From assembly GCF_009933255.1 (NCBI RefSeq), contig NZ_MAEI01000028.1, positions 1 through 49,291 on the forward strand: a DNA stretch of 49,291 nucleotides, written 5' to 3'. Origin of the DNA: Enterococcus diestrammenae. GTDB lineage: Bacteria; Bacillota; Bacilli; Lactobacillales; Enterococcaceae. The position numbers and the translations under genes were made by a program. Below the pieces are notes generated by a model. It was not told where the DNA came from and did not search any database. It saw nothing but the letters and a program-made list of their open reading frames with translations. This document shows, one piece after another, positions 3,169-17,448 of this stretch (position 1 is its first letter; every line of letters starts with the position of its first letter).

Positions 3169-6159
<2,991 letters not shown>

Positions 6160-6267: not shown

Positions 6268-7668
6268 ATGGCTGACATGATTTTACCTGAATCAGAAGAA
6301 TACAAATATGGTTTTCACGATGATGTCACACCGGTCTTTACTACTGGTGATGGCTTATCAGAAGAAGTCATCCGCCAAATTTCCGCCGCAAAAGGCGAAC
6401 CTGAGTGGATGCTAGACTTCCGTTTGCAGTCCTTAGAAGCTTTTAATGAAATGGCTATGCCTAAATACGGTCCGGATCTCAGTGAATTGGATTTCAATAA
6501 AATCAATTACTTTATCCGTTCCTCTGAAAACAAAGCCCGTAACTGGGAGGATGTACCGGAAGATATCAAAAACACTTTCGAACGTTTGGGGATTCCTGAA
6601 GCTGAGCGGGCCTATCTCGCTGGGGCTTCTGCCCAATACGAATCGGAAGTGGTCTACCATAATATGAAAGAAGAGTTTGAAGAATTAGGGATCATCTTTA
6701 CCGATACGGATTCGGCCCTCAAAGAATACCCGGAACTCTTCAAAGAATACTTTGGCACATTAGTTCCTCCCCGAGACAACAAACTAGCTGCCTTGAACTC
6801 CGCAGCTTGGTCTGGTGGTACCTTCATCTATGTACCAAAAGGTGTCCGCACTGAAATCCCGATTCAATCCTATTTCCGGATTAACTCTGCCAACACGGGA
6901 CAGTTTGAACGGACCTTGATTATCGTCGACGAAGGTGCCAGCATCAACTATGTCGAAGGATGTACAGCGCCAACTTATTCCAGCGATTCACTCCATGCCG
7001 CTGTGGTGGAAGTCTTTGTTAAAAAAGACGGCTACATGCGTTATACTACTATCCAAAACTGGTCCAATAACGTCTACTCCCTTGAAACAAAACGTGGCGT
7101 GGCCTATGAAAACGCCACGATGGAATGGGTGGACGGCAACCTCGGTTCTAAAGCAACCATGAAATACCCAAGCGTTTATATGAACGGTCGCGGTGCTCGT
7201 GGGACCATGTTGAGTATCGCAGTAGCCGGTAAAGGAATTGTTTTGGATAACGGTGCCCGGATGATCCATAACGCTGAAGACACTTCTTCCACCATTATTT
7301 CTAAATCAATTTCCAAAGATGGGGGCGAGGTGGACTATCGTGGGGAAGTCCGCTTTGCTGAAAATTCAGCTGGCTCAAAATCTCACATCGAGTGTGACAC
7401 CATCATTATGGATGATCTATCGAAATCAGATACGATTCCTTATAACAAAATTTTGAACCACGATGTGACCTTGGAACACGAAGCCAAAGTCTCTAAGATT
7501 TCCGAAGATCAACTTTTCTATCTCATGAGTCGCGGCCTCAGCGAACAAGAAGCCACTGAAATGATTGTCATGGGCTTTGTGGAACCCTTTACGAAAGAAC
7601 TACCGATGGAATACGCAGTCGAGATGAATCGGTTGATAAGTATGGAGATGGAAGGTAGCGTGGGCTAA
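6268..7668 (+). CDS. sufB: Fe-S cluster assembly scaffold SufB
   Basis: Main scaffold subunit of SufBCD, where the nascent cluster forms. ATG 6268 ([10 protein letters not shown]) is preferred over GTG 6256 because AAGGAG ends immediately before the GTG; this gives 466 residues, the usual length. Conserved SufB blocks are visible: [50 protein letters not shown], and the C-terminal [21 protein letters not shown]. It is the last gene of the operon, followed by a terminator near 7745. Confidence 0.97.
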
Positions 7669-7744
7669 TTAGCTTATTAACCTTCACATTAATATAAAAT
7701 AACGATGTTAAAAAGTTTAGTATTAAAAATATTAAATCTGAAGT

Positions 7745-7775
7745 ACCGTCTAGATAGGCGGTCTTTGGATTTTTT
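7745..7775 (+). terminator. Intrinsic terminator of the suf operon
   Basis: ACCGTCT pairs with AGGCGGT (one T-G wobble) around an AGAT loop. A run of six T (7770-7775) follows after a short CTTTGGA spacer. It also marks the left edge of the AT-rich CRISPR island. Confidence 0.75.
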
Positions 7776-7822
7776 GTTTTAATAACAATTAAATAGAAAG
7801 CTTAACTAAACAAATGTTAACG

Positions 7823-7855
7823 TTTACATTATAGCCGTATTTGATATACTATAAT
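7823..7855 (+). promoter_or_regulatory. Promoter upstream of the HTH gene
   Basis: TTTACA (7823-7828), a 16-bp spacer and TATACT (7845-7850) with an extended TG at 7842-7843. An overlapping TATAAT (7850-7855) is less well spaced. It would transcribe the HTH gene and, by read-through, the cas9 leader. Confidence 0.7.
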
Positions 7856-7986
7856 TAAGGGGATGCTAGAAGGCATGTAATTTTAAAAATGGATTAGGTT
7901 ATAAACTATTTCCGTATTTTTTGTTATTAGAAAACTAAATATTTGAGAGAAAGGAGAATAGCGAACGAAAAAATTTAAAGAAGGTG

Positions 7987-8271
7987 ATGCAATTACGTAG
8001 ATATCCAGAAAGCTTCAAGACAAAAATTGTAGACTTACGCAGTGATGGCCACAGAGTATCAGAGCTAGCTAAAATTTTTGAAATATCGGAATCAAGTATC
8101 TACCGATGGGTCAAAACTTTAAGAAGTACTGAACCTGAAAACCTGCTAGAGTGTAAATTGATGTTAGAAGCCCTCATCGAATTAAATAAAAGGCAAAAAG
8201 TGTTGGAAAACATGTCTTTAAAAATCAAAAAAATTTTTATTATTGATCTAGAGCATCCCCGATTAATTTAA
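7987..8271 (+). CDS. Orphan transposase-type HTH protein
   Basis: A 94-residue protein (95 if GTG 7984 is used) that looks like OrfA of IS3-type elements. It opens with RRYPESFKTKIVDLRSDG and has a helix-turn-helix VSELAKIFEISESSIYRWV at residues ~24-42. The usual leucine-zipper tail is poorly matched. No orfB, no inverted repeats and no target duplication are visible, so it is not a complete insertion sequence. It has its own promoter and lies 245 bp upstream of cas9 in the same orientation. It may be an IS fossil or a recruited regulator. A stretch of its HTH-coding DNA (8067-8091) matches the guide-like sequence at 8312-8335 in inverted orientation. The ribosome binding site is poorly spaced, so the start is uncertain. 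Confidence 0.6.
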   Translation: MQLRRYPESFKTKIVDLRSDGHRVSELAKIFEISESSIYRWVKTLRSTEPENLLECKLMLEALIELNKRQKVLENMSLKIKKIFIIDLEHPRLI

Positions 8272-8297
8272 ATGGGTTTTTTCTGTTTGTATTATCA

Positions 8298-8306
8298 TGC
8301 TAAAAT
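8298..8306 (+). promoter_or_regulatory. Extended -10 promoter of the cas9-leader RNA
   Basis: TG-C-TAAAAT forms an extended -10 box. No good -35 is present, which extended -10 promoters tolerate. Initiation would fall near 8313, about 23 nt before the repeat-like sequence, a sensible guide length. Confidence 0.5.
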
Positions 8307-8335
8307 ATCTGTTCCAATTTCAGAAAATTTTAGCT

Positions 8336-8375
8336 GTTTTTGTAATTTCTGGGAATAATATAGTAATGGCAAATC
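8336..8375 (+). repeat. Degenerate CRISPR repeat upstream of cas9
   Basis: This 40-nt sequence shares both ends with the 36-nt array repeat, in the same orientation. It begins GTTTTTGTA and carries AGTAATGG at 8362-8369. It lies 6 kb from the array and is not followed by another repeat. Confidence 0.65.
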
Positions 8376-8450
8376 AATAAGCGTAGTAGTAATAAACCGA
8401 ATAAAAAGTAGATGGAGTTTTTGAGTTTCCTTCCTGTAACAAATTACAGC

Positions 8451-8484
8451 AAAAACTATTGAAGCCCCTCTTCGATAGTTTTTT
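8451..8484 (+). terminator. Strong terminator just before cas9
   Basis: AAAAACTATTGAAG pairs with CTTCGATAGTTTTT (14 bp, one wobble) around a CCCCT loop and ends in six T. It lies between the leader RNA and the cas9 ribosome binding site (GAGGAGG, ~8505-8511). Transcripts starting upstream must read through it to express cas9, unless a promoter I did not find lies between. Confidence 0.85.
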
Positions 8485-8516
8485 GGTAGAAGGAAATTCA
8501 TTTTGAGGAGGTAACT

Positions 8517-11500
8517 ATGGGTAAACTTGAAAAGATAGATACCAAAGTAAATATTGGTTTTGATATGGGAATCGCTTCGGTCGGATGGTCGGTTTTAGAT
8601 AACCAAACGGGAAAGATTCTTGAAACTGGCGTTAGTATTTTTCCGAGTGGATCAGCATCACGGAATGTGGAAAGACGAGGATATCGCCAGTCCCGCAGAC
8701 TTTTGCGACGGCGGAAGAATCGTATTGCTGATATGGATCGTTTTCTAGCTGCACATGGTTTTCCTTTTGACAATCCATACCCAAGGGAAAATCCATATCT
8801 GATTCGAGTAAAAGGCCTGAAAGAGAAACTCACTAGAGAAGAGCTTGCCATCGCTTTACATCATATGGTTAAACGGAGAGGGATTAGCTATGATTTAAAG
8901 GATTCGGAAGATGAAACAGCGAATGGTTCAAATTATCAAGAAAGTATTGCTATCAATCAACAATTACTTCGAGACAAAAGTCCGGCCGAAATTCAATTGG
9001 CCCGCTTGGAAGAGTTTGGCAAAGTTCGTGGTCAAGTCAAGAATTTATCAGAAGATACGTCAACAACTCTGTTAAATGTTTTTCCAAATTCCGCATATAA
9101 AGAAGAACTCCTTAGCATTTTGAATGAGCAGCAAAAGTATTATCCAGAAATAGATGATAGCTTTATCAATGATGCGAGTGCTATTTTGACCCGAAAACGG
9201 GAATACTACATCGGACCTGGCTCGAAAAAGTCGCGAACAGACTATGGTATCTATCGAAGGGATGGCACAACTTTAAAAAATTTATTTGAATTGTTAATCG
9301 GAAAGGATAAAATTTTTCCTGAAGAATATCGGGCCTCTGGGAATAGTTTTACTGCACAAATGTATAACTTGTTAAATGATTTGAATAATTTAACCGTTGA
9401 TTCCACAGAAGATGGTAAATTAACTACCGAGCAAAAAGGGCAAATCATTGAGGAATTAATGGAAACGACCGCAAAGGTCACAAATGTCACTATGATTAAG
9501 ATTATTGCCAAAGCAGCTGGGACCGATGCTAAAGGCATCAGCAAATATCGAGTGGATCGCGATGGTCAACCAGAATTTCATTCCATGGCGATTTATCGAC
9601 GATTGCATAAGAAATTTCTGGAAACAGGGATTGATATCACTACCTGGCCAGCAGAATTTTTTGATGCGTTTGGACCGATTGTTACGCTTAACTCGGAGAA
9701 TGGTGAATTACGGAAATGGTTGGAAGATGAAGGGCGCAACAACTATGAATTTTTGAATGAGGCAATTATTGATGCCATCATCGCTAAGAAAGCTGCTTTT
9801 AATGTGGTGGGAAAAAATAAATGGCACCGTTTTTCTTTAAAGACGATGCATTTGCTCATCCCAGAGCTATTGAATACCTCAAAAGAGCAAATGACCATTT
9901 TATCCGATATGGGATTACTTCATGCCCATAAGAAGGATTACTCCAAGCAAGCAAAAGTTGATGTGAAGTATCTTACAGAAAATATCTTTAATCCTGTTGT
10001 TCGAAAATCAGTCAAACAAGCGATGGATATTTTTAATGCGCTTTTTGAAAAGTATACCAACATTGCTTATCTTGTGATTGAAATGCCACGAGATGATGCC
10101 GAGGATGAGGTTGAAGAAAAGAAACAATTCCAAAAATTTCAGTTGGAAAACGAAAAAGAAAAGGAACGCTCCTTGAAAGTGTTTCAAGAACAAGCGGGTA
10201 TTTCTGATGCACAGCTTTATGGTCAACTGCGACAGCACAAAAAGTTACGACAAAAAATTCGGATGTGGTATCAACAAGAAGGGAAATGTCCCTATTCGGG
10301 TAAGACGATAGCCGCAGTCGATTTGTTTTATCGGGATAATTTATTTGAAGTTGATCATATTATTCCGTTATCGGTATCTTTTGATGATGGGCAAAATAAT
10401 AAAGTGCTCTGTTACTCTGAGGAAAACCAAGAAAAAGGCCACCAGACACCCTATAGTTATATGAGTCGAGGCGGGGGGCAAGGTTTTCCGGCGCTACAAG
10501 CTTATGTTAGAACGAATAAGCTTTTAACAAATGCGAAAAAGAAAAATTTACTGTTCACCGATGACATCAATGATATTGAAGTCCGTAAACGATTTATCGC
10601 TCGCAATTTAGTAGATACTAGATACGCTTCACGAATTGTTTTAAATGAATTGCAGCAGTTTGTTCGGAGCAAGAATTTATCAACGAAAGTCACAGTAATC
10701 CGTGGCAAGCTAACTAGTAAGCTTCGCGAACGTTGGCACCTGAATAAATCGAGAGATACACATCATCATCATGCGGTTGATGCTGCTGTTATAGCAGTCT
10801 CGCCAATGCTTAATATGTGGGAGAAAAATGCCGAAATTATTCCTCTTAAAGTAGATGAAAATACTATTGATTTAAAAACTGGGGAAAGTATTACGGATGC
10901 GCAATATGCTGAGCAAATGTATGAATTACCATATGCTCGTTTTCTCGAACAGATGCCAACACTATTTGAAAAAATAAAATTTCATCATCAGGTAGATAAA
11001 AAAATGAATCGCAAAGTCAGTGATGCGACTTTGTATTCTACCCGTAAAGCGAAAGTTGGCAAAGATAAAGTAGAGGAAGATTATGTTCTTGGCAAAATTA
11101 AGGATATCTATAATTATGAAAATTATAAAAAATTCAAGAAGATCTATGATGCGGACAAAACAAAATTTTTGATGCAACGAATTGATCTACAGACGTTTGC
11201 TAAACTTGAACAAATTATTAGTGACTATCCCGCCAAAATCGAAATCACCCAACCTAATGGGAAAGTTAAACCGATGGATATTAGTCCGTTTGAATTATAT
11301 CGTCGGGAACACGGACCAGTGACAAAGTATGCAAAGAAAAACAATGGACCAGCTATTAAATCTTTGAAGTTTTATGACAGTAAAATGGGGGATGATCCAA
11401 TAAAGATTACCCCTGAAAATGCTAATGGGAAAGAAGTGATCCTACAGTCTCTTAAACCTTGGCGGACAGATGTCTATTATAATCAAGAAACTGATGAATA

Positions 11501-11924
11501 TGAAATTATGGGGATTAAGTATGCTGATTTGAAGTATATAAAAGGAAAATACGGTATTCCGAAATCTAAATATCAATCACTCATGGTTTCGGAGGGGGTA
11601 GATACTAAGTCTGAATTTTTGTTCTCACTTTATAAATATGATCGTATTTGTGTCAGTGATGATACTAAAGAAAAGATTGAATTGCTTTTCGTTTCAAGAA
11701 CGATGCCCAAGAAAAAAGGGTATGTTGAACTAAAACCAATAGACAGAAATCAGCTGGATGGGAAAGAAGTAGTTTCAGTTTACGGGGCTGCGTCTAATGG
11801 ACGCTTAAAAAAGCGGTTGACAAGAAAAGGCTATACTCTGTACAAAGTCAACACAGACATTCTAGGGAATCCTTTCTATATCAAAAAGGAAGGAAATTCA
11901 CCGAAAAATATCCTTGACCTGTAA
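8517..11924 (+). CDS. cas9: CRISPR-associated endonuclease Cas9 (type II-A, compact)
   Basis: RNA-guided DNA nuclease that cleaves invading DNA with a crRNA:tracrRNA guide. At 1135 residues it belongs to the compact branch near S. thermophilus CRISPR1 Cas9 (~1120), not the ~1370-residue SpCas9 type. RuvC-I is GFDMGIASVGWS with D16. The arginine-rich bridge helix (NVERRGYRQSRRLLRRR) lies near residues 50-70. RuvC-II is VIEMPRDDAED with E522. HNH is EVDHIIPLSVSF with H614 and an asparagine near 628. RuvC-III is THHHHAVDAAVIA with D755. All catalytic residues are present, so it should be active. The C-terminal ~300 residues are the PAM-interacting region; the PAM cannot be read from sequence alone. 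The ATG follows GAGGAGG. Confidence 0.97.
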   Translation: MGKLEKIDTKVNIGFDMGIASVGWSVLDNQTGKILETGVSIFPSGSASRNVERRGYRQSRRLLRRRKNRIADMDRFLAAHGFPFDNPYPRENPYLIRVKGLKEKLTREELAIALHHMVKRRGISYDLKDSEDETANGSNYQESIAINQQLLRDKSPAEIQLARLEEFGKVRGQVKNLSEDTSTTLLNVFPNSAYKEELLSILNEQQKYYPEIDDSFINDASAILTRKREYYIGPGSKKSRTDYGIYRRDGTTLKNLFELLIGKDKIFPEEYRASGNSFTAQMYNLLNDLNNLTVDSTEDGKLTTEQKGQIIEELMETTAKVTNVTMIKIIAKAAGTDAKGISKYRVDRDGQPEFHSMAIYRRLHKKFLETGIDITTWPAEFFDAFGPIVTLNSENGELRKWLEDEGRNNYEFLNEAIIDAIIAKKAAFNVVGKNKWHRFSLKTMHLLIPELLNTSKEQMTILSDMGLLHAHKKDYSKQAKVDVKYLTENIFNPVVRKSVKQAMDIFNALFEKYTNIAYLVIEMPRDDAEDEVEEKKQFQKFQLENEKEKERSLKVFQEQAGISDAQLYGQLRQHKKLRQKIRMWYQQEGKCPYSGKTIAAVDLFYRDNLFEVDHIIPLSVSFDDGQNNKVLCYSEENQEKGHQTPYSYMSRGGGQGFPALQAYVRTNKLLTNAKKKNLLFTDDINDIEVRKRFIARNLVDTRYASRIVLNELQQFVRSKNLSTKVTVIRGKLTSKLRERWHLNKSRDTHHHHAVDAAVIAVSPMLNMWEKNAEIIPLKVDENTIDLKTGESITDAQYAEQMYELPYARFLEQMPTLFEKIKFHHQVDKKMNRKVSDATLYSTRKAKVGKDKVEEDYVLGKIKDIYNYENYKKFKKIYDADKTKFLMQRIDLQTFAKLEQIISDYPAKIEITQPNGKVKPMDISPFELYRREHGPVTKYAKKNNGPAIKSLKFYDSKMGDDPIKITPENANGKEVILQSLKPWRTDVYYNQETDEYEIMGIKYADLKYIKGKYGIPKSKYQSLMVSEGVDTKSEFLFSLYKYDRICVSDDTKEKIELLFVSRTMPKKKGYVELKPIDRNQLDGKEVVSVYGAASNGRLKKRLTRKGYTLYKVNTDILGNPFYIKKEGNSPKNILDL

Positions 11925-11942
11925 GCGCAATCTTGGTATCAT
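11914..11942 (+). promoter_or_regulatory. tracrRNA promoter
   Basis: TTGACC (11914-11919), a 17-bp spacer and TATCAT (11937-11942). The -35 lies in the last cas9 codons. Initiation is expected near 11949, at the foot of a hairpin that leads into the anti-repeat. Confidence 0.65.
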
Positions 11943-11948
11943 AATGGT

Positions 11949-12044
11949 GCGAGCGACGGCTCGCTACCATTACTGATTCCTTGAGAATCTACAAAAATAA
12001 GGCTTTATGCCGAAATTCCCACTCTATGCGGAGTGGGTTTTTTA
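11949..12044 (+). ncRNA. tracrRNA
   Basis: Trans-activating RNA that pairs with crRNA repeats and anchors them in Cas9. The anti-repeat starts at 11965. TACCATTACTGATT is an exact complement of the 3' half of the array repeat, followed by TTGAG and then TACAAAAA complementing the 5' half, with a small central bulge. Next comes AAGGCTTTATGCCG (a nexus-like stem as in S. thermophilus CRISPR1 tracrRNA) and a terminator hairpin CCCACTC-TATGCG-GAGTGGG (12018-12037) with T-rich tail. Position between cas9 and cas1 and + orientation match the CRISPR1 arrangement. A 6-bp hairpin GCGAGC-GACG-GCTCGC (11949-11964) would form its 5' end. The exact 5' end is inferred. Confidence 0.9.
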
Positions 12045-12065
12045 TTTTCTTGAGGAGGTGTAGCG

Positions 12066-12968
12066 ATGACGTGGCGTATCGTACATGTAAAAGACAGTGA
12101 AAACATGCGATTGAAATTAGATAATTTAGAGATTTTGAAACGGGGGCAACGGTTTTTAGTTCCTTTATCTGACATCAGTATGGTGGTTATTGAAGGAAAG
12201 ACAACAGTAACCACTAGTGTCTTATCGCAGTTTACGAAATATAACATTGTTTTAGTTATTTGTGACAATCATTATTTACCAACAGGGATGATGCTTAACT
12301 ATGGAAATTATCATCATTGCGCAAAGCGTGTTATGGAACAAGTGGCGTGGTCTGATGAAAATAAGCAACAGGTTTGGCAGCAAATTGTGGGCCAGAAAAT
12401 AAAAAATCAAATTGCTTTTGCCGAACTTAAGCAAACATCCGTTGATCGAATTGCTGTAATGGAAGAGTTATTGGGACAATTGACCCCAGGGGATGTAACC
12501 AATCGCGAAGGACATGTTGCTAAAGTTTATTTTAATTCGCTTTATGGAATGGATTTTACACGGGATGACGATTCTTTAGTTAATAGCGCGATGAATTATG
12601 GTTATGCCATTGTACGAGCGGCGATGGCAAGAATTGTTGTAGGTCAGGGATTGATGTCCATGATTGGTATTTTCCATCACAATGAATTCAATTCTTTTAA
12701 CTTAGTAGACGATCTAATGGAACCTTTTCGTCCAGTAATGGATTATTGGATTGATAAACAGGTTATGTCAGAATATGAATACTTGACGTATGAAGCGCGG
12801 TTACAAATTATCGATTTTATGAATCAACCGATGCGTTATGGTTCAATCAAGAGTAGTGTCGACCAAGTTATGCAGAAATATGTTGGCAGTTTTATGAAAG
12901 CCATCAAAAATCCCGATTTACCAGTTCATGAAGTGTTGCTGCGAGATTTTGTGGAGGTAGAAAGATGA
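12066..12968 (+). CDS. cas1: CRISPR adaptation endonuclease Cas1
   Basis: Integrase subunit of the Cas1-Cas2 complex that inserts new spacers at the leader end of the array. The 300-residue length is normal for type II. Likely metal ligands are E148 (NREGHVAKVYF), H204 or H205 (GIFHHNEFNSF) and E219 (DDLMEPFRP), all in the usual contexts. The start follows GAGGAGGTG at good spacing, just after the tracrRNA terminator; some read-through or a separate promoter is needed for its expression. It overlaps cas2 by 4 bp. Confidence 0.96.
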   Translation: MTWRIVHVKDSENMRLKLDNLEILKRGQRFLVPLSDISMVVIEGKTTVTTSVLSQFTKYNIVLVICDNHYLPTGMMLNYGNYHHCAKRVMEQVAWSDENKQQVWQQIVGQKIKNQIAFAELKQTSVDRIAVMEELLGQLTPGDVTNREGHVAKVYFNSLYGMDFTRDDDSLVNSAMNYGYAIVRAAMARIVVGQGLMSMIGIFHHNEFNSFNLVDDLMEPFRPVMDYWIDKQVMSEYEYLTYEARLQIIDFMNQPMRYGSIKSSVDQVMQKYVGSFMKAIKNPDLPVHEVLLRDFVEVER

Positions 12969-13288
12969 GGTACCAACAAATGAGAGTGCTTTGCATGTTC
13001 GATTTACCGATGGAAACGAAGGCGGATCAACGGGATTATCGAATTTTTCGAAAAGAGTTATTATCAAATGGATTCGTGATGCTCCAATATTCAATTTATT
13101 ATCGAACCGTCCCCAATCGTCCAGCGGGTAAAAAATATGAAACGATTCTAAAACGATTGATACCTAAAGCTGGGGAAGTGAGACTTCTTTATGTCAGCGA
13201 GAAACAGTTTGAAGAAATGCAACTTTTAGTGGGAACGAAGGGGTATCAAGAAGAAGTGATTGGTAGTCAAAAATTGGTGGTGATTTGA
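12965..13288 (+). CDS. cas2: CRISPR adaptation protein Cas2
   Basis: Small ferredoxin-fold protein (107 residues) that forms the structural core of the Cas1-Cas2 integrase. The N-terminal strand MRVLCMFDLPMET carries the aspartate typical of Cas2, and the FRKELLSNGFVMLQYSIYYR stretch is the type II form. The start lies within the cas1 end (ATGA) and its stop overlaps the csn2 ATG (TGATG), so cas1-cas2-csn2 are translated as a coupled unit. Confidence 0.95.
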   Translation: MRYQQMRVLCMFDLPMETKADQRDYRIFRKELLSNGFVMLQYSIYYRTVPNRPAGKKYETILKRLIPKAGEVRLLYVSEKQFEEMQLLVGTKGYQEEVIGSQKLVVI

Positions 13289-14334
13289 TGGAAATAGCAT
13301 TGGAATATGAGTTTGGTAAATTCCTGGAGTGTGACAATGAAGGAATCTCTTTTATATTAGGAGGAGATTCTGCCGTGAAGTGGAAACTGTATCGTGGATT
13401 AAAGCGCTTTGCTACTGGCAAAATGTTATCTGAATTAGAAGAGCATGTTTACGGGGATGATGGAATTGTTATCCGCGCTGATGGGAGACAAATCAAAGCT
13501 AAGGATATTCAATTGCTTATGATAGATCATCGAGAAAGCTTTTTTGAGCAATTGCGGGTGAGCAAAGGTACCATGATGAATGGATTTGTTGAAACACTTC
13601 AGGATAACTTTGAAGTAATAAAGAAAATGGATGAGTTGAATGATGATTTGCTACGGCTGGAGATACTGATTCAAGAGAAATTTTCAGATTCCTTTACCAC
13701 TGTCGTCCCTTTAATCAAGAATTTTACTTTCAATGACTTGATGAAAAATTTTCTAGGATTGAGTTATTATGAAGAGAATAAGGAATTTCCTCTTGAAATG
13801 ATGGATGTTGCAACTGTTATCGATGACTATTGCGATATCTTAGAGCACAACTTGTCGAGTACTTCTAAAGAGACTTGGCTCTGGTTGTTTAATCCAAATT
13901 CATTTGTCAATAATGTGGTTCTCCAGCAGCTACTGGAACGATTGAAAGTAATCTGCTCTGAAAGTGATTTATTACGAGTTTTTGTTCTGAGCGATGACTG
14001 TCTTGGGATTAGTCATGCTGAGGAAGATATCGCTAAAACTGTTCTAGTTTATCAAAATCAACAACAGCAACTACCAGAATTATCTGAGTTGATAAAATCT
14101 ATCGAACGATACTATCCGGATGATTTTAGGTATGATACAGAGCAACTTGTTGATTCACTTTATCGAATTTTCCCAAGTGTTGGTCAAGAGGATGCAAAAA
14201 TCTATCTCAAGCCTAAGGATATGCTATTATTAAAGGTAGTCAGTCAGTTAGTAGATTGTCCTAGCAAAGAAAAATGTAAGGATTTTAGTGATGAATTGAC
14301 AACTTTGGAGAAGAAATTTCTCCAAAAAGAATGA
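13288..14334 (+). CDS. csn2: Adaptation protein Csn2, long form
   Basis: Type II-A marker protein that forms ring-shaped DNA-end binding multimers and works with Cas1, Cas2 and Cas9 in spacer capture. At 348 residues it is the long form found beside CRISPR1-type Cas9, not the ~220-residue form of SpCas9 loci. The N-terminal ~200 residues follow the Csn2 fold pattern (EYEFGKFLECDNEGISFILGGDS at the start is split here only by reading). The C-terminal ~120 residues are the extension. ATG 13288 is chosen over TTG 13285. Its 3' end carries a 9-bp hairpin (14304-14326), and the array begins 37 bp after the stop. Confidence 0.9.
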   Translation: MEIALEYEFGKFLECDNEGISFILGGDSAVKWKLYRGLKRFATGKMLSELEEHVYGDDGIVIRADGRQIKAKDIQLLMIDHRESFFEQLRVSKGTMMNGFVETLQDNFEVIKKMDELNDDLLRLEILIQEKFSDSFTTVVPLIKNFTFNDLMKNFLGLSYYEENKEFPLEMMDVATVIDDYCDILEHNLSSTSKETWLWLFNPNSFVNNVVLQQLLERLKVICSESDLLRVFVLSDDCLGISHAEEDIAKTVLVYQNQQQQLPELSELIKSIERYYPDDFRYDTEQLVDSLYRIFPSVGQEDAKIYLKPKDMLLLKVVSQLVDCPSKEKCKDFSDELTTLEKKFLQKE

Positions 14335-14371: not shown

Positions 14372-16519
14372 GTTTTTGTACTCTCAAGAAATCAGTAATG
14401 GTAAAACTTGGTACAGGCTTGCAGACAGCAACTAATGGTTTTTGTACTCTCAAGAAATCAGTAATGGTAAAACGTTCTGAAGTCGGTGCTAATGCATTGA
14501 TTAGTTTTTGTACTCTCAAGAAATCAGTAATGGTAAAACTTTATCCCCTGTGAAGTCCCTGTTGTACCTGTTTTTGTACTCTCAAGAAATCAGTAATGGT
14601 AAAACCGATACCATGTTGATCTATGACAATATCAGTTTTTGTACTCTCAAGAAATCAGTAATGGTAAAACTTTGTGTCTACTGACCAAAAAATGGCAGAG
14701 GTTTTTGTACTCTCAAGAAATCAGTAATGGTAAAACGTGACTTTTTAAACGAACGCTATTCAGACGGTTTTTGTACTCTCAAGAAATCAGTAATGGTAAA
14801 ACGCGAGCATACGAAAAAAGGGACATGACGTCGTTTTTGTACTCTCAAGAAATCAGTAATGGTAAAACTCAAAGCGTGTTATGGATGCCACAGAAGCCGT
14901 TTTTGTACTCTCAAGAAATCAGTAATGGTAAAACATTTTAAGTGCGATGCCGACAACTGACGTAGTTTTTGTACTCTCAAGAAATCAGTAATGGTAAAAC
15001 GATTCTTTCAATGGTCAGCTTAGGCTATTCGTTTTTGTACTCTCAAGAAATCAGTAATGGTAAAACAAATGGTGATTGATGCAGAGTCCTATCAACGTTT
15101 TTGTACTCTCAAGAAATCAGTAATGGTAAAACTGCATACTTTTCGCGTACGTGCCCATGATCGTTTTTGTACTCTCAAGAAATCAGTAATGGTAAAACCT
15201 GTCAGAGCCTTCTCTGTGTGGCCTGTCGTTTTTGTACTCTCAAGAAATCAGTAATGGTAAAACGGCACGAGGCAAGATGCTCGCTGATGAATGGTTTTTG
15301 TACTCTCAAGAAATCAGTAATGGTAAAACGGATACATAGCCGACAACCCTATGGCTGATGTTTTTGTACTCTCAAGAAATCAGTAATGGTAAAACTCCAG
15401 AATCGAGGCGGACTCATACGTTGTAGTTTTTGTACTCTCAAGAAATCAGTAATGGTAAAACAATCATCTCATCAGTCCAAAAACCGCCCGAGTTTTTGTA
15501 CTCTCAAGAAATCAGTAATGGTAAAACCAGTCCAAGGCAAGGTGACTACGGTAGCGGGTTTTTGTACTCTCAAGAAATCAGTAATGGTAAAACCAAACGA
15601 ATTTTCAATCGAGATCAGTCCAGTGTTTTTGTACTCTCAAGAAATCAGTAATGGTAAAACTTGCTATCCACGAGCCAAATCTATATCTATGTTTTTGTAC
15701 TCTCAAGAAATCAGTAATGGTAAAACTGTGGTCGTCCAAAAGACTTGCTTTACCGCGTTTTTGTACTCTCAAGAAATCAGTAATGGTAAAACAAAGAAGA
15801 TTTAATCGCACTTGGTGTTGACGTTTTTGTACTCTCAAGAAATCAGTAATGGTAAAACGCTGGAAGCGATTGGAGAGCGACCACTGTTGTTTTTGTACTC
15901 TCAAGAAATCAGTAATGGTAAAACTCAAAAAGAATCAGATGGTGTCAGAAGCTTGTTTTTGTACTCTCAAGAAATCAGTAATGGTAAAACACCTACAAAA
16001 TTCCGATTTACAAACTTTCTGTTTTTGTACTCTCAAGAAATCAGTAATGGTAAAACGTAGTCTCTGTTAGCATACCCCTTGCCTGCGTTTTTGTACTCTC
16101 AAGAAATCAGTAATGGTAAAACGAAAACACTAAAATTGTGAATACCGAAACTGTTTTTGTACTCTCAAGAAATCAGTAATGGTAAAACACTCGCAACTTA
16201 AAAACCACTGCTGCACGTGTTTTTGTACTCTCAAGAAATCAGTAATGGTAAAACTTAGGTTGGTTTTATCCGTTCCGAGAAAAGGTTTTTGTACTCTCAA
16301 GAAATCAGTAATGGTAAAACTTGATTCACTAATGAGGGCCCCAGCAAGCAGTTTTTGTACTCTCAAGAAATCAGTAATGGTAAAACTCGGCGGAACCTAC
16401 GCCATCGGTAACGCTCGTTTTTGTACTCTCAAGAAATCAGTAAAGGTAAAACCAAACGAATGCTCCTCTCATCGGCCAGTCAGGTTTTTATACTCTCAAG
16501 AAATCAGTAATAAGAACAC
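14372..16519 (+). CRISPR. CRISPR array, 33 repeats and 32 spacers
   Basis: The 36-nt repeat begins GTTTTTGTACTCTCAAG and ends CAGTAATGGTAAAAC. Its 5' half matches the S. thermophilus CRISPR1 repeat. Repeats are identical except the last two: the one at 16417 has TAAAGG for TAATGG, and the terminal one at 16484-16519 is degenerate at its 3' end (TAATAAGAACAC) with one further change near its 5' end. Spacers are 30 nt, except numbers 4 and 13 (29 nt) and 19 and 32 (31 nt). I saw no duplicate spacers among those I read. Degeneracy at the right end puts the leader at the left and transcription on the + strand, the orientation that pairs with the tracrRNA. The array promoter was not identified and may lie in csn2. 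Apparent open frames across this stretch are repeat artefacts. Confidence 0.99.
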
Positions 16520-17254: not shown

Positions 17255-17313
17255 AAAAAAAGGTGGTTGCCGGTTATAGTAGATACATAACCAACAACAA
17301 CCTTTTTATTTTT
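17255..17313 (+). terminator. Intrinsic terminator
   Basis: A-rich arm AAAAAAAGGTGGTTG pairs with CAACAACCTTTTT, with an inner GGTTAT/ATAACC stem, then a T-rich tail. Confidence 0.75.
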
Positions 17314-17348
17314 CATTTTACTCCGTTAAAGAGTAATTACTCCTTTTT

Positions 17349-17380
17349 CCACCGGACCTAACCAACCCGGTGGTTTTTTT
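17349..17380 (+). terminator. Second intrinsic terminator
   Basis: CCACCGG / CCGGTGG, 11-nt loop, followed by seven T. It backs up the terminator at 17255. Confidence 0.9.
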
Positions 17381-17448
17381 GTGTCCAAAAAAACTTACAC
17401 TAGATATGTTCAGAGCGTATGGGGCTTTATTTGGATAAGAACAACAAG

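Follow-up and report, generated by a model that had tools for sequence, protein, structure and literature searches.

A single worn copy of a CRISPR repeat stands by itself upstream of cas9 in a type II-A locus of Enterococcus diestrammenae, and it could either belong to a guide RNA that regulates its own locus or be what is left of a decaying array. The answer matters for the question of how Cas9 is kept in check in CRISPR1-type II-A systems that lack tracr-L. The stretch analysed here, called the window below, is one contig of 49,291 nt within a genome of 3.16 Mb, and its relevant features are collected in Table 1. According to an earlier, sequence-only reading, the repeat copy would belong to a dedicated guide RNA that uses the tracrRNA to aim Cas9 at its own operon. 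At 17289–17381 the window also carries Ref84 of Rfam, an Enterococcus sRNA.

Table 1. Features of the cas9 locus and of the region upstream of it (window coordinates)
Feature	Position	Strand	Remarks
cre (catabolite-response) match	7815–7828	+	perfect consensus match at the HTH promoter, next to 7823
Promoter-like site	7823–7850	+	TTTACA-16-TATACT, 10/12; best-scoring upstream of cas9; before the HTH gene
Helix-turn-helix (HTH) protein gene	7984–8271	+	95 aa; HTH_Tnp_1/HTH_28
Candidate guide target	8067–8084	−	inside the HTH gene; 18 nt, one nt bulged; flanked by AGCTCTG
Extended −10 box	8299–8306	+	TGCTAAAAT; without recognisable −35; absent from the promoter scan list
Guide-like segment (spacer position)	8313–8335	+	23 nt
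Degenerate CRISPR repeat	8336–8375	+	array orientation; alignment, shuffles; 181 nt before cas9
Hairpin	8434–8449	+	6 bp; fold
Intrinsic terminator	8451–8483	+	13–14 bp stem, then T6; fold; 33 nt to cas9 start
cas9	8517–11924	+	CRISPR1/St1-like II-A; PAM-interacting domain unlike that of the nearest relative
tracrRNA	about 11942–12046	+	5′ hairpin (loop GACG), anti-repeat 11965–11999, terminator
cas1, cas2, csn2	12066–14334	+	csn2 of the St subfamily
CRISPR array	14372–16519	+	33 repeats of 36 nt and 32 spacers; last repeat degenerate

The repeat copy and its surroundings

When aligned with the array repeat, the copy shows 28 identities and a 4-nt insertion, and both ends of the repeat are retained. 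It is the top repeat match of the window outside the array and the tracrRNA region (score 32, next 27), and none of the 14 top windows contained a second non-array match near it. When the upstream region was shuffled, 1 of 1000 sequences scored as high, and in a second shuffle test none of 500 did; a repeat likeness arising by chance is unlikely, and the earlier description of a degenerate, array-oriented copy with its ends kept holds. The 6-bp hairpin and the strong terminator that had been described downstream of it are likewise both present in the fold. The terminator is missing from the list of a consensus terminator scan, probably because the stem extends into the run of T.

The start of the unit is less well marked. 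The extended −10 box that had been pointed out is in place, but it lacks a recognisable −35 and was not listed by the promoter scan, which instead gave a 9/12 site at 8267–8295, just before the box, from which transcription would start near 8302. Promoter-like sites in the region numbered 5, as against 3.8 ± 2.0 in shuffles, and were thus not above chance; any promoter dedicated to the repeat unit looks weak.

With so short a distance between terminator and cas9, transcription of cas9 very probably starts before the terminator. The promoter-like site before the HTH gene is presumed to drive this gene and, by read-through, cas9. The cre match at this site, scored against the cre consensus, is the sole perfect one in the window (mean of 0.17 in shuffles, 17 of 100 containing one). 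The best promoter, the cre site and the 33-nt gap together point to the HTH gene as the first gene of the cas9 transcript, and we infer a shared HTH–cas9 transcript on this basis. Cre-like sites at presumed cas promoters may place the II-A system of the window under carbon-catabolite control. With one mismatch allowed, such a site was also found 21 nt before cas9 in L037 and at −422 in L038; against catabolite control, six of the nine loci scanned had none.

A candidate target in the adjacent gene

If the repeat copy is taken to work as a repeat, the segment preceding it occupies the position of a spacer. A match to this guide-like segment, absent from the earlier reading and new here, is found in the adjacent HTH gene, at a distance of about 250 nt. 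The encoded protein, possibly a transposase remnant, has a single database relative at E ≤ 0.001, which is 95% identical, and one weak relative within the genome (41% over 41 residues). The repeat-proximal 12 nt of the guide match 8067–8078 perfectly, which is the best seed match of the window (next best 9), and the gapped match extends over 18 nt with one bulge. The gapped match was equalled by 1 of 2000 shuffled regions and by none of 300 shuffled guides. Among 23-mers tiled over the window, 4 of 2048 had an inverted match this good within 425 nt and 2 a direct one; a 12-nt seed within 430 nt was found for 2 of 1233 tiled 20-mers, and the 32 array spacers gave seeds of at most 7 in the upstream region. 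By these controls the chance of the guide–HTH match is about 0.0005–0.003, the match having been found post hoc.

Elsewhere in the genome, the 12-mer seed occurs five times with the guide itself included, as against once for a reversed control pattern; the three sites other than the guide and the HTH gene lie in unrelated places and show no further match, and the 22-nt guide has no other genome site within three mismatches. Within 7600–8600 the site in the HTH ORF is the sole repeat-proximal match of at least 7, and the promoter of the cas operon is without one. As to strand, the guide would pair with the HTH coding strand, which is the orientation that blocks elongation.

Several features count against a guide. 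The sequence AAAATTTT is simple, and the target lies inside an ORF rather than a promoter. The PAM of St1Cas9 is NNAGAAW, and the flank of the target does not fit an St1-like motif.

Pairing with the tracrRNA

The changed middle of the repeat copy had been said still to pair with the tracrRNA. This is true, the predicted duplex amounting to −27.1 kcal/mol as compared with −37.1 kcal/mol for the true repeat, but it exceeds chance only marginally. Pairing this good was obtained with 3.0% of shuffled and 3.8% of random middles (5000 trials each), and after simulated decay in 4.2% of cases when the whole unit decayed neutrally and in 16% when only the middle did. In longer RNAs a crRNA-like duplex is still predicted and the guide is left free, with ddG values of −18.7 and −16.2 for the repeat unit, where spacer 1 and its repeat give −29.7. 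The predicted pairing is thus compatible with function, while being no proof of selection.

By eye, tracrRNAs start with a GACG-loop hairpin beside the anti-repeat in the window (11942–11972), in L003 and in L006–L012, and in the window this hairpin covers the tracrRNA start as well.

Cas9 and its PAM

The nearest named match of the window's Cas9 is that of Enterococcus canis (66%), and the nearest solved structures, judged by sequence, are those of S. thermophilus CRISPR1 Cas9. The proteins P0002–P0005 are 76–99% identical to it. Compared with P0003, the protein is 93% identical overall and only 66% identical over residues 985–1135, the remainder being nearly the same by eye. The pattern in this PAM-interacting part looks like the result of an exchanged domain, which may have altered the PAM, and given this divergence the PAM of the window's Cas9 may be its own.

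No protospacer from which the PAM could be read was found in phages, in plasmids or, for 7 of the 32 spacers, in viral contigs. In detail, the phage search with the window's array (E ≤ 0.1) returned only Streptococcus phage records, and the two examined match by their repeats; the same search with the array of L038 returned only S. thermophilus phage records; the plasmid search with the window's array gave no match; and the seven spacers queried singly as 20–21-mers had no match in viral contigs.

The S. thermophilus phage records that match CRISPR1-type arrays number 19 each for the window's and the L038 array, several being duplicate entries. Mini-arrays lie between terS and terL in the two records examined, at 669–837 (L068, KT717085.1) and 890–993 (L069, KY705271.1), with a promoter and a terminator by eye. 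Spacer 1 of phage 128 matches the terL start of phage P7574 at 30 of 30 positions (flank AAAGAGTT) and its own terL at 26 of 30 (flank AAAGAATT), and the other two spacers reach at most 17 of 30 against either terL stretch. It is known more generally that viruses carry mini-arrays directed at their relatives (PMC11656645).

Upstream regions of related loci

Cas9 was searched for in 10 genomes of the genus, 105 of the family and 395 of the order, the last set being sampled from a larger group and searched with a stricter cut-off. Matches were found in 2, 8 and 28 genomes, respectively, the window's own included, which gives 31 other genomes. The 600 nt before cas9 were then compared with the repeat of each locus in 17 loci, namely the window and the 16 best-scoring other genomes; the repeats of L037 and L041 had been completed by hand and were later borne out, and that of L052 is only 30 nt long.

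A forward repeat-like copy is present upstream of cas9 in 4 of the 17 loci, the window, L038, L039 and L041, with scores that none of 500 shuffles reached in any of them. No such copy was found in the other 13, among which L037 came closest (28 of 500 shuffles). Same-strand copies thus recur in relatives, but two of them, those of L038 and L039, fit broken array remnants: they lack the first bases of the repeat and read by eye like a leader fused to a repeat. In L041 (genome G044) the region before cas9 holds a true array with one spacer, made up of a leader that ends in ATTTGAG, a repeat, a spacer and a second repeat that is degenerate at its 3′ end and followed, by eye, by a terminator. These two repeats are the only ones in that genome (pattern with up to three mismatches), and none follow csn2. 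The locus as a whole, with the array at 3652–3753 in the oriented sequence, has complete cas genes, and this array of a single spacer is its only one.

The upstream regions align with each other to a limited extent. The L038–L041 alignment coincides with the repeat unit, and its score was reached by 4 of 200 shuffles. The top local alignment of L038 with L039 covers the unit and nothing else, yet 13 of 200 shuffles equalled it, and conservation of the unit beyond its repeat likeness was rejected for this pair. L038 and L040 share a 15-nt A-rich word and no repeat (1 of 200 shuffles), and each of the remaining twelve pairs was reached by at least 38 of 200 shuffles. The window's own upstream region had no alignable stretch in any of five relatives (80 to 179 of 200 shuffles).

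No conserved guide–target pair was found among the relatives compared. The segments of L038 and L039 in the position of the guide gave seeds of at most 7 near cas9, and gapped local-target scores were 24 for L038, 20 for L039 and 24 for L041, as against 31 for the window. The L041 spacer reached a gapped score of 27 against its own surroundings only; over the 14 kb searched for seeds, it gave seeds of 10 and 9 within the cas9 gene of that locus, and the L041 leader segment gave one of 7. A scan of genome contigs yielded two distant Prevotella loci and nothing else.

A hairpin of the form GGA-GACG-TCC, seen by eye, precedes ATTTGAG or a variant of it in the main-array leaders of the window, L037–L040 and L044 (6 of the 17 printed); in L038 the upstream copy is followed by GGAG-GACG-CTCC.

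Guide RNA, relic or other element

That the unit encodes an autoregulatory guide of the scaRNA or CreR kind, in a CRISPR1-type II-A system, is rated slightly ahead of a decaying array relic, at what we judge to be just under an even chance. The proposal of a dedicated guide aiming Cas9 at its own operon gains from the crRNA-like anatomy, the recurrence in relatives and the candidate target in the HTH gene; it loses by a flank that is not St1-like, a weak promoter and the failure of a guide–target pair to recur in relatives. The relic reading sees in the copy the last leader–repeat junction of a former second array upstream of cas9, decaying and functionless, the guide–HTH match then being a coincidence of AT-rich sequence. 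We hold this to be a serious possibility, if clearly short of even. The real array in the same place in L041, the leader-like junctions of L038 and L039 and the L038–L041 alignment over the unit all suit it, as do a tracrRNA pairing marginally above neutral decay and, in the window itself, the sequence CAATTTCAG just upstream of the copy, which by eye resembles the leader end CAATTTGAG. However, among Cas9 proteins of 54–73% identity a functionless copy would be expected to have been lost, whereas 4 of the 17 loci examined show one, and decay predicts neither the retained ends, nor the attached terminator, nor the local self-match.

Two further explanations dispense with guidance of Cas9. Unless it falls within the last 33 nt, the cas9 promoter lies before the terminator, and the cas9 mRNA must then read through it, which would suit a leader element or attenuator of this mRNA; alternatively, the guide could act as an antisense partner of the HTH mRNA, with which it is predicted to pair at −18.6 kcal/mol. 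We regard this pair of options as improbable. An attenuator in which the repeat copy works against the terminator was ruled out by ensemble pairing, the antiterminator formed by the copy and 8441–8458 being minor (0.27–2.45 expected pairs) against the local hairpin (4.15–5.40) at all six lengths that contain it. It is more improbable still, in our view, that the copy serves as a decoy, a Racr-like sponge titrating tracrRNA or Cas9 with no need of a guide target. The predicted duplex with the tracrRNA would fit this, as would L038, where the upper part of the repeat is retained and the first bases are lost, and solitary repeat RNAs of phages are CRISPR inhibitors (PMC10651486); but the pairing is weaker than that of a crRNA, the gain for the host is unclear and the guide–HTH match is left unexplained.

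Under the autoregulatory guide reading, an RNA of about 170 nt would be made, either from the weak promoter immediately before 8313 or as part of HTH transcripts that stop at the terminator. Its repeat copy would pair with the tracrRNA, and the hybrid would load Cas9. The match being incomplete, Cas9 would bind the HTH coding strand at 8067–8084 without productive cutting, and the bound protein would block elongation of the presumed HTH–cas9 transcript. Since crRNAs would compete for Cas9 and tracrRNA, repression would ease while immunity is in use.

The copies upstream of cas9 in relatives make it likely that the unit derives from an upstream array. What the window holds beyond a relic is a terminator-bounded unit with a local self-match sized like those of scaRNA (15) and tracr-L (11). 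It is tempting to speculate, though we are inclined to doubt it, that CRISPR1-type II-A systems of Enterococcaceae employ a tracrRNA-dependent trans guide that came from an upstream mini-array and took the role that tracr-L has in S. pyogenes, with Cas9 roadblocked in the first gene of the operon and relieved by crRNA abundance, and that in the strain of the window this guide outlived an exchange of the PAM-interacting domain. The relatives, with a true mini-array, broken repeats or none, could form a series leading from an array to a regulator or to its death. If true, a separate crRNA-like regulator would connect type II-A systems with CreR and scaRNA as a family of exapted repeats.

Comparison with known systems

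The papers found, judged by titles and the opening parts of abstracts, included none in which a crRNA-like unit precedes cas9 in Enterococcaceae; Shmakov 2023 and Workman 2021 may each report cases from type II-A already. The sequence-only reading knew of no such arrangement. However, scaRNAs of II-A systems were predicted in silico by Guzina et al. in 2018 as repeat-homologous units with promoter and terminator, and one of these, in Mycoplasma gallisepticum, lies right upstream of cas9 with expression from the reverse strand (PMC6199352), so that the idea is less new than had been thought. The window's unit is likewise repeat-homologous and upstream of cas9, on the forward strand in this case; the word 'Enterococcus' is absent from the main text of that paper.

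Ectopic degenerate repeats with partial self-matches, of 15 nt in scaRNA and 11 nt in tracr-L, characterise such guides (PMC9458426, PMC8616872). In the scaRNA of Francisella novicida (type II-B), a degenerate ectopic repeat acts together with tracrRNA and Cas9, and the guide has a 15-bp partial match to a host operon (PMC9458426). The window's unit resembles it in being an array-sense degenerate repeat outside the array, complementary to the tracrRNA, whose guide partially matches a host gene. It differs in belonging to a type II-A system and in its place upstream of cas9, and its candidate target lies in the presumed cas operon rather than in a lipoprotein operon. A scaRNA has its own promoter and terminator; the window offers the terminator together with an extended −10 box without a −35, among promoter-like sites at chance level.

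In some II-A systems, including that of Streptococcus pyogenes, the RNA tracr-L steers Cas9 to its own cas region by an 11-nt match (PMC8616872, PMC11417352), and the window's guide similarly has a short partial match in its own presumed cas operon. Unlike tracr-L, which is a single RNA from the tracrRNA locus, this guide would be a separate crRNA-like unit, and 3.6 kb separate it from the tracrRNA. Neither an anti-repeat nor a nexus is seen in it by eye, for which reason a natural single-guide RNA was rejected. Judged by eye, the promoter of the window's tracrRNA has transcription begin at the 5′ hairpin, so that a tracr-L guide could not be accommodated. CreR of types I and V-A is a crRNA-like regulatory RNA that, with the Cas effector, is aimed at the cas operon promoter (PMC12737573). 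The window's unit is crRNA-like as well and has its candidate target in the presumed cas operon, but in a type II system and within the body of a gene.
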